A DNA stretch of 5,758 nucleotides from a bacterium. Its GTDB lineage: Bacteria > SM23-31 > JAUVVT01. Below are positions 4,573 through 5,758 of the stretch, in pieces; within the stretch, counting starts at the first letter, position 1, and every line of letters begins with the position of its first letter. The notes below the pieces were generated by a model. The model made no database searches. It saw nothing but the letters and a program-made list of their open reading frames with translations, and was not told the DNA's origin. Location: assembly GCA_030616165.1 (NCBI GenBank), contig JAUWXV010000229.1:1-5758 (forward strand), in the 5' to 3' direction. A program made the translations under genes and the position numbers.

Positions 4573-4588
4573 TAATTAGCAAAATAAA

Positions 4589-4642
4589 GGGGGCGAATCC
4601 AAAGGACAGGCACACAGTGCACGCACACGGGTTCGCCCCTAC
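4589..4642. repeat. Palindromic element with enlarged loop, CTAC edge
   Basis: GGGGCGAATCC (4590-4600) pairs with GGGTTCGCCCC (4629-4639) with one mismatch, and CTAC follows at 4639-4642. The loop is 28 bases, far longer than in the sister elements, and holds a small inner hairpin (GCAC-ACA-GTGC at 4610-4620). It is the first of the GC-rich palindromes in this cluster and is preceded by TTAGCAAAATAAAG, like the copy at 5075. Confidence 0.6.
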
Positions 4643-4704
4643 GTTATGTTTGAAATTTGTATTATGACGGGTTCGATAAATCGAACCCCTACATTTGGTT
4701 GAAA
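4633..4704. repeat. 72-bp direct repeat, copy 1 (partner at 4848-4919)
   Basis: This stretch recurs 215 bases downstream with three mismatches. It begins inside the right arm of one palindrome, runs through GTTATGTTTGAAATTTGT, contains the whole palindrome at 4669-4688 and ends in GGTTGAAA. The duplicated unit therefore links two different palindromes in fixed order, which indicates duplication of a composite block rather than separate insertions. Confidence 0.8.
4669..4692. repeat. Perfect palindrome GGGTTCGAT-AA-ATCGAACCC with CTAC edge
   Basis: Nine-base arms at 4669-4677 and 4680-4688 around AA, then CTAC at 4689-4692. It is identical to 4884-4907 and nearly identical, in reverse, to 734-757. 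The GGTTCGA word recalls a tRNA T-arm, but no other tRNA arms are present. Confidence 0.75.
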
Positions 4705-4756
4705 CATTGCCTCAAGCTATTAGCTGTTAGCTTTTAGTTGTTAGATAAAATAAGAG

Positions 4757-4785
4757 GAGTATGCATTAAAACAAGGATTGAAAAC
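4757..4785. repeat. CRISPR-repeat-like fragment 1
   Basis: The sequence GGAGTATGCATTAAAACA continues into AGGATTGAAAAC. It matches the copy at 5261-5290 across about 25 bases with few differences and shares CATTAAAACAAGG with 5018-5030. The AT-rich body and ATTGAAA(A)C end are typical of type I/III CRISPR repeats. There is no regular spacing and no array, so this is called a dispersed CRISPR-like repeat, not a CRISPR. Confidence 0.5.
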
Positions 4786-4831
4786 AATAAGAATAAACCG
4801 CAGACCCAAAGGGGCAAGGAAGAAAACAGAG

Positions 4832-4857
4832 GGGGCGACCCGGCGGGTCGCCCCTAC
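4832..4857. repeat. Palindrome GGGGCGACCC-GGC-GGGTCGCCCC with CTAC edge
   Basis: Perfect 10-base arms at 4832-4841 and 4845-4854 around a 3-base centre, with CTAC at 4854-4857. Compared with 4590-4639 the arms carry GAC/GTC where the sister has GAA/TTC. The stem therefore changed while pairing was kept. The strong GC content contrasts with the surrounding AT-rich DNA. Confidence 0.75.
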
Positions 4858-4919
4858 GTTATGTTTGAAATTTGTGTTATGACGGGTTCGATAAATCGAA
4901 CCCCTACAGTGGGTTGAAA
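4848..4919. repeat. 72-bp direct repeat, copy 2 (partner at 4633-4704)
   Basis: This is the same composite block as 4633-4704, shifted 215 bases. Differences are A/G at 4661/4876, T/G at 4694/4909 and T/G at 4696/4911. It contains the full palindrome at 4884-4903 with CTAC at 4904-4907, and ends in GGTTGAAA, which resembles the 3' end of the CRISPR-like fragments. Confidence 0.8.
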
Positions 4920-4966
4920 GATAAAGATATTAAAAATATAAAAAAGGGCAGAACATAGTGTGCGGG

Positions 4967-5025
4967 CAAAGAGGGCGAACACACGGGTTCGCCCCTACAA
5001 ATATTGAAATAAAACACCATTAAAA
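4967..5025. repeat. 59-bp direct repeat with palindrome, copy 1 (partner 5069-5127)
   Basis: The block is repeated 102 bases later with a single mismatch (5017 versus 5119). It contains the palindrome GGGCGAAC (4973-4980) / GTTCGCCC (4987-4994), the CTAC edge at 4995-4998, then AAATATTGAAATAAAACA and the start of a CRISPR-like fragment. Low divergence suggests recent duplication or gene conversion. Confidence 0.8.
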
Positions 5026-5038
5026 CAAGGGTTGAAAC
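5016..5038. repeat. CRISPR-repeat-like fragment 2
   Basis: ACCATTAAAACAAGG (5016-5030) followed by GTTGAAAC (5031-5038). It shares CATTAAAACAAGG exactly with 4764-4776 and ends in the canonical TTGAAAC. It starts inside one 59-bp direct repeat; in the partner repeat at 5120 the same fragment is cut after CATTAAAA. Confidence 0.5.
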
Positions 5039-5068
5039 ATTGGTATTAGCTATTGGCTATTAGCAAAA

Positions 5069-5127
5069 CAAAGAGGGCGAACACACGGGTTCGCCCCTAC
5101 AAATATTGAAATAAAACAACATTAAAA
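5069..5127. repeat. 59-bp direct repeat with palindrome, copy 2 (partner 4967-5025)
   Basis: The same block as 4967-5025 with one mismatch, with its palindrome and CTAC edge at 5075-5100. It is preceded by a short TATTAGC-type tandem (5044-5064) resembling the TTAGC-rich stretch at 4715-4744. The CRISPR-like fragment at its right end is truncated to CATTAAAA. Confidence 0.8.
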
Positions 5128-5165: not shown

Positions 5166-5273
5166 ATGGATATTTCTTAAAAAGTGTCGATACGCCTGAG
5201 GCGTATAAATGTGATTGGAAGGTCTCGGGGAGCGGGACGGGAGACATATAACTCACGATAAAGGAATATCCAT
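5166..5273. other. Possible three-way-junction RNA or fold-back element
   Basis: Outer arms 5166-5178 (ATGGATATTTCTT) and 5261-5273 (AAGGAATATCCAT) pair over 13 positions, with one position that would be a G-U wobble in plus-strand RNA. Inside are two hairpins: ATACGCC (5190-5196) with GGCGTAT (5200-5206), and GTCTC (5222-5226) with GAGAC (5241-5245). The right outer arm overlaps the start of CRISPR-like fragment 3. There is no coding sequence. Whether it is transcribed is unknown. Confidence 0.35.
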
Positions 5274-5290
5274 TAAAATAAGGATTGAAA
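5261..5290. repeat. CRISPR-repeat-like fragment 3 (most complete)
   Basis: AAGGAATATCCATTAAAA continues into TAAGGATTGAAA, 30 bases in all. It has the length and ATTGAAA end usual for a CRISPR repeat and matches fragment 1 over about 25 bases. It is single, directly followed by another palindrome at 5298, with no second repeat 60-75 bases away on either side. Confidence 0.5.
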
Positions 5291-5297
5291 TATTCTT

Positions 5298-5321: not shown

Positions 5322-5359
5322 ATTAACTGCGTGGTGAAGAAGGCCTCGTCATTTACGAT

Positions 5360-5758
5360 TACTGAAGTAAGGGGTTAATGGAATGTGTTTACGCCTAACT
5401 TACCCCTAACTAAAGTTAGGGGTTAATGAAAAATCAATCCCATACTGAAGTTAGGGGTTAATGAGATGTGTTTACGCCTAACTTACCCCCGACTGAAGTC
5501 AGGGGTTAATGAAAAATCAATCCCTGACTGAAGTCAGGGGTTAATGAGATGTGTTTACTCCTAACTTACCCCTAACTGAAGTTAGGGGTTAATGAAAAAT
5601 CAATCCCTGACTGAAGTCAGGGGTTAATGAGATGTGTTTACGCCTAACTTACCCCTAACTAAAGTTAGGGGTTAATGAAAAATCAATCCCTGACTGAAGT
5701 CAGGGGTTAATGAGATGTGTTTACGCCTAACTAAAGTTAGGGGTTAATGAAAAATCAA
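5360..5758. repeat. 83-bp tandem array with two hairpins per unit, runs off the window
   Basis: The word ATGTGTTTA recurs at 5383, 5466, 5549, 5632 and 5715, an exact 83-base period over nearly five units. Each unit has two related cores: CCCTAAC-TGAA/TAAA-GTTAGGG followed by GGTTAATGAAAAATCAAT, and CCCTGAC-TGAA-GTCAGGG followed by GGTTAATGAGATGTGTTTA. The cores lie 35 and 48 bases apart (5570 to 5605, then 5605 to 5653), so the unit probably arose by duplication of a smaller hairpin motif. Stems differ as TAAC/GTTA versus TGAC/GTCA with pairing kept. The last visible unit has lost 11 bases. Since 83 is not a multiple of three and every frame is interrupted, the array does not encode a repeat protein. 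The first copy is degenerate on its left. The function is unknown. Confidence 0.9.

Follow-up and report, generated by a model that had tools for sequence, protein, structure and literature searches.

The window, by which we mean the whole 5,758-nt stretch of DNA analysed here, ends in an 83-bp tandem array on the plus strand (5361..5732). Tandem Repeats Finder reported a period of 83, 4.5 copies and 94% match with no indels over 5361-5732; the contig end (5758 of 5758) falls within the array, hence the 4.5 copies are the assembled part only. Each unit holds two hairpins, here termed B1, with spacers of differing length (28 nt and 16 nt). Ten such hairpins of 20 nt, of the type stem-TRAA-stem, lie head-to-tail in direct orientation at 5355..5743 on the plus strand, starting at 5355 (degenerate), 5403, 5438, 5486, 5521, 5569, 5604, 5652, 5687 and 5724. 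The form of the B1 hairpin is CCCCTNAC-TRAA-GTNAGGGG followed by TTAAT, with stems of 7-8 bp and TGAA or TAAA loops. The conserved 3' tail TTAATGA is first clearly seen at 5423..5429 (plus strand) and recurs after the remaining hairpins. The last partial unit (5693..5758, plus strand) is 11 bp short compared with the others and runs off the contig end; this deletion is consistent with slippage between two CCTAACT half-copies.

A previous sequence-only reading described an exactly constant 83-base period with two tetraloop-like hairpins per unit, the first of these being AAC/GTT in units 1, 3 and 4 and GAC/GTC in unit 2. The two hairpins and their distribution by unit were found as described, and four units keep the period exactly, the shortened last unit being the exception. 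We also agree that the array is not a CRISPR, as unique spacers would be required, yet the entire 83-bp unit is conserved throughout.

Other repeats lie upstream of the array. Three isolated 37-nt repeats resembling CRISPR-DR7, with the core ATTAAAACAAGGATTGAAAC, are found about 250 nt apart at 4748-4784, 5003-5038 and 5255-5291. They score slightly under the Rfam gathering score, are interleaved with GTAG-type hairpins and have more single copies on five other contigs; possibly they represent a decayed or scattered CRISPR array. Positions 4588-5100 hold several other palindrome families (GGGCGAACNNNGGGTTCGCCCCTAC and GGGTTCGATAAATCGAACCCCTAC), whose GTAG tags are read on the complementary strand, and the same hairpin types border two RAYT genes at other loci of the genome (L031 and L032).

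On both strands an 83-nt unit folds much more stably than 200 dinucleotide-shuffled versions of it (z from -4.8 to -5.4). Most stem differences had been described as paired, and the pattern is real, as far as it goes: within the B1 family of the genome from which the window derives (the source genome), paired change is essentially confined to one stem pair (AT 25, GC 16, CG 4, TA 3), and unpaired changes are present in the hairpins at 5355, 5438, 5486 and 5724. The variable pair shows all four Watson-Crick states and is paired in 48 of 57 rows, against at most 34 in 20,000 shuffles, while the other B1 pairs hardly vary. The 57 rows include one palindrome counted twice owing to its self-complementary loop (contig C187), and correspond to 56 copies. 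Such covariation suits folded single-stranded DNA and RNA equally well.

The source genome (3.74 Mb on 343 contigs, an assembly 90% complete) was searched for further copies, and the stretches around the matches were read. Allowing at most one mismatch, GTYAGGGGTTAATG gave 49 matches, against 2 for its backwards control. The B1 hairpin has 56 copies on 24 contigs, with backwards controls near zero, so the element does occur at other loci of the same genome, a check that had been proposed. Within clusters the orientation of B1 is identical in all 27 neighbouring pairs, two pairs from the double-counted C187 hairpin being excluded. None of the 22 loci inspected has hairpins within a long ORF, and the locations are mostly intergenic. 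The B1 repeats often break the assembly: as read from the match positions, about eight of the 24 contigs have a copy no more than 300 bp from one of their ends. The arrays on C90 and C187, which are built of different units, nevertheless speak against the copy number being a simple assembly artefact.

Many isolated B1 copies are preceded by a second hairpin, and B1 is one module of a larger, dispersed composite. Its order is a constant hairpin A (AAACCGTTRAAACGGTTT), a linker of variable sequence, B1, TTAAT and an optional 19-bp mini-hairpin C (AAGCCNNAGGCTTATTAAT), which often follows directly after the TTAAT of B1; for the element in general, the motif behind hairpin B is TTA(A)T. In 16 of 18 composites of the source genome B1 starts 40-45 nt after A. 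The array in the window is B1 only, without hairpin A; the sequence-only reading saw this one module, hairpins A, C and B2 being located at other loci of the source genome. An inverted partner often follows. At five loci (C160, C249, C147, C114 and C182) it carries the different B hairpin B2 (CCCTCGATWWATCGAGGG), at a search offset between 31 and 33 nt, which rises to 51-52 nt where C is present. Where both A hairpins are retained, as on C160, the arrangement becomes A-B1...B2'-A'; the five loci hold complete or partial pairs of this kind. No consistent orientation of the composite to neighbouring genes was detected (ORF-based, no gene caller), and on the same ORF basis the inconsistent orientation led us to reject a cis-regulatory leader. 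At L006 (on C145; reverse strand, about 1155-1420), just upstream of a composite element, there is a tRNA-like gene whose end (GCTTGGGAAGCTTGCACTCTACCNACTGAGTTNCACCCGC) is repeated behind it in incomplete tandem copies.

Comparison of composites points to modular behaviour. C145 and C80 carry near-identical composites in different flanks, differing by exactly the 19-bp hairpin C after TTAAT. On C114 there is a 27-bp B2 hairpin plus TTAATAT which is absent from C182 and C32 of the same genome, with matching sequence on both sides. From these two comparisons, hairpin-plus-TTAAT(AT) units are gained or lost as blocks, insertion versus deletion not being polarised. C114 and C182 may be segmental duplicates, as they have longer flanks in common.

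A covariance model built from 16 composites gave 34 matches in the source genome, 7 in G001 (another genus of the same family), 18 in G006 (another phylum, of which it is the sole genome in the collection) and a single marginal match in G005. No composite was detected by the model in 94 other genomes. A covariance search across genomes, as had been proposed for the array unit, recovered the composite in two further genomes. The strict B1 pattern was absent from 97 other genomes, and outside the source genome it gave two stretches in the genome collection with one hairpin each, from an Ignavibacteriales MAG and a Saprospiraceae MAG; crossing between genomes was achieved by the structure model only and not by the strict pattern.

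In G006 hairpin A is either unchanged or carries a paired change (AACCGA-TGAA-TCGGTT). Hairpin B has a TNAA loop nearly always and mostly lies 39-49 nt after A, with stems such as CCCACGAA/TTCGTGGG, CCCCAGT/ACTGGGG and CACCACGA/TCGTGGTG. All cells of the B-stem alignment pair, and six of the eight pairs are changed on both sides. The covariation score was 0.416, against at most 0.039 for slid-partner controls, from an alignment that was fitted to the model and hence leans toward structure. From one genome to another the B stems take on other sequences but keep their pairing, their loop and their distance from A.

The homologues in G006 are also linked to transposase genes. On C32 a Y1_Tnp gene is flanked on both sides by inverted composites, on C89 another lies between two A-B...B'-A' pairs, and on C51 a 35-residue tnpA remnant adjoins a composite. 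Both proteins match the IS200 family and carry an HUH motif (DHFH and EHIH) together with the Y---Q--HH signature (YIRKQEEHH and YIQNQDEHH), features shared with TnpAY1 subclass 1.2 (PMC6006769), to which they are assigned by signature alone. The survey of that subclass reports generally no terminal secondary structures (PMC6006769), unlike these two members with their flanking double-hairpin repeats. The C89 element gave no matches in a plasmid search.

Further, we looked at homologous loci. The signature is carried by 10 of the 11 examined, and at 8 of 11 the two flanks share sequence beyond 200 dinucleotide shuffles; by the same test none was shared at G045, G058 and G056. The shared sequences are mostly palindromes, G050b being a plain direct duplication, and A-B type flanks were seen in G006 only among these loci. 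Judged from these flanks, an association of subclass 1.2 with flanking repeats may be general. Other repeated palindromes, including AGCTGCGTAGCTGCGTAATATTTGTAGA and AGTCCCGTTAGGGACGA, flank the signature-bearing genes L236 (Bernardetia plasmid NZ_CP147018.1), L235 (Persicobacter plasmid CP012861.1), L215 (G003) and L217 (G050).

No subclass 1.2 gene was detectable in the source genome (90% complete assembly) or in G001; therefore the elements there are either orphaned or their gene is unassembled. This leaves room for a mover of a different kind, namely one of the genome's own class 2 RAYT (TnpAREP) proteins. The source genome has seven Y1_Tnp loci, several of them with flanking hairpin families of their own, and together with the missing subclass 1.2 gene this would favour such a protein. 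However, the A-B composite directly flanks none of the seven, the hairpin family at each characterised locus is another one, and REPs are reported to pair specifically with their enzymes (PMC2817692, PMC8266576), so we regard a RAYT mover as improbable. Two of the Y1_Tnp observations are worth recording in their own right. At L026/L075 (C182, about 13.3-16.7 kb) a RAYT gene lies between tandem 41-bp hairpin arrays of 10.2 and 7.4 copies that have the same orientation on both sides, as opposed to the usual inverted REP pair. L027 and L028 (C283 and C302) encode Y1_Tnp proteins that closely resemble each other; no obvious hairpins flank them, and they are possibly recently duplicated.

Among known repeats, the closest likeness is to REP/BIME/REPIN sequences (PMC2817692, PMC3116915, PMC3733652). 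Like these, it consists of short palindromes that are dispersed, lie between genes and come in complementary stem subtypes. It also forms inverted dimers (at the five loci of the source genome and in G006, the array in the window being direct), and its G006 homologues flank, in inverted orientation, a Y1 tyrosine transposase gene. In REP families complementary stem subtypes are common, GTAG/CGTC tags are present and head-to-tail dimers are rare (PMC3733652). The present element, in contrast, has flanks without a GTAG or CGTC tag; instead, TTAAT follows the stem on its 3' side when the hairpin is read with the TRAA loop. It also joins two dissimilar hairpins in each unit at a constant spacing, forms direct tandem arrays, has fewer copies, is linked to enzyme class 1 and not class 2, and directly flanks no RAYT gene in the source genome. 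As it lacks the tags, we term it REP-like and keep it apart from the REP families.

The IS200/IS605 elements are similar in having end hairpins, a Y1 transposase, a short conserved sequence adjacent to the hairpin and, in G006, tnpA remnants. They differ in their distinct left and right hairpins, as against inverted double-hairpin ends on both sides, and a gene between hairpin-bearing ends is found in G006 and not in the source genome. By description the element may also be likened to TIRtrons (PMC3733652), which have tyrosine transposase genes, terminal repeats lacking GTAG and, in some cases, double palindromes with dispersed copies. Finally, hairpin A is identical to an 18-nt palindrome of Caldithrix abyssi, aAACCGTTgaAACGGTTt (PMC5317091), including the strand-defining central GA/AA, and both are intergenic and multi-copy, with 38 exact sites in Caldithrix abyssi. 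The Caldithrix abyssi palindrome was described as stand-alone, strand-specific, intergenic, unexplained and possibly Chi-like, with no conservation outside the 18 nt (PMC5317091). A B hairpin of variable sequence beside that motif would escape a comparison based on sequence conservation.

The strong RNA folding and the conserved pairing could also be expected of hairpins acting mainly as RNA, either as stabilising or terminating 3' structures of mRNAs or as a repetitive structured transcript, with the array as an expanded set, and there are three weak terminator-like matches on the array minus strand. We find this quite unlikely, as orientation to genes is inconsistent, the plus-strand hairpins are followed by TTAATGA and not by a T-run, nothing over the array reached the gathering score in Rfam 15, the homologues flank a single-stranded DNA transposase gene and the modules are gained and lost as units. 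Intrinsic terminators were likewise rejected, given the lack of a T-run on the plus strand and the three weak matches on the minus strand. The repetitive structured RNA offered by the sequence-only reading is not supported, since the composite lacks a consistent gene orientation and its homologues flank the transposase gene, and the element is probably not a dedicated RNA; host use of the hairpins as RNA may be a secondary effect. Least likely of all is a minisatellite built by slippage and hairpin-templated repair with no mobile element involved, which fits the paired variation at mostly one stem position and the slippage-like 11-bp deletion but leaves unexplained the spread over 24 contigs, the recurrence of a fixed composite of two hairpins in other genomes, the presence and absence of modules and the flanking of tnpA. 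Slippage and repair may well explain the local amplification step.

We consider it likely that the array arose when B1, a module of a dispersed, gene-less palindromic mobile element putatively served by a TnpAY1 enzyme of subclass 1.2, was amplified locally in tandem. Enzymes of the TnpAY1 type recognise hairpins folded from single-stranded DNA, next to which they cleave at guided positions (PMC6006769, PMC8266576). Here, a TnpAY1-type HUH-tyrosine enzyme of subclass 1.2 would recognise the folded single-stranded hairpins, cut near the conserved TTAAT on their 3' side and join hairpin-TTAAT units, and by such cutting and joining the modules would spread and stack. Slippage or unequal recombination between direct copies would then have multiplied B1 head-to-tail in the window. 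Pairing would be kept because it is the folded hairpin that is recognised, or possibly also because the palindromes template their own repair. As no cognate enzyme gene was found in the source genome, mobilisation there is something that we only infer. The dispersed copies, the presence and absence of modules, the covarying composite in other genomes and the flanking of transposase genes in G006 support the structural constraint proposed in the sequence-only reading and likewise its suggestion of an expanding selfish repeat.

As a REP-like, non-autonomous element it is ordinary in kind; what is unusual is the two-hairpin architecture, the direct arrays and the association with an enzyme subclass for which no substrates are known. 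More tentatively, and at somewhat less than an even chance, we speculate that subclass 1.2 TnpAY1 enzymes broadly drive palindromic elements in several phyla, that one branch of these has two hairpins, A constant and B diversifying, and that the Caldithrix abyssi motif is a half-element. The case illustrates that paired hairpin changes resembling selection on RNA can arise from mobile DNA hairpins. A transposase subclass without known substrates gains a candidate DNA substrate, and for the strand-specific palindrome of Caldithrix abyssi, so far unexplained, the match to hairpin A offers an explanation that can be tested.
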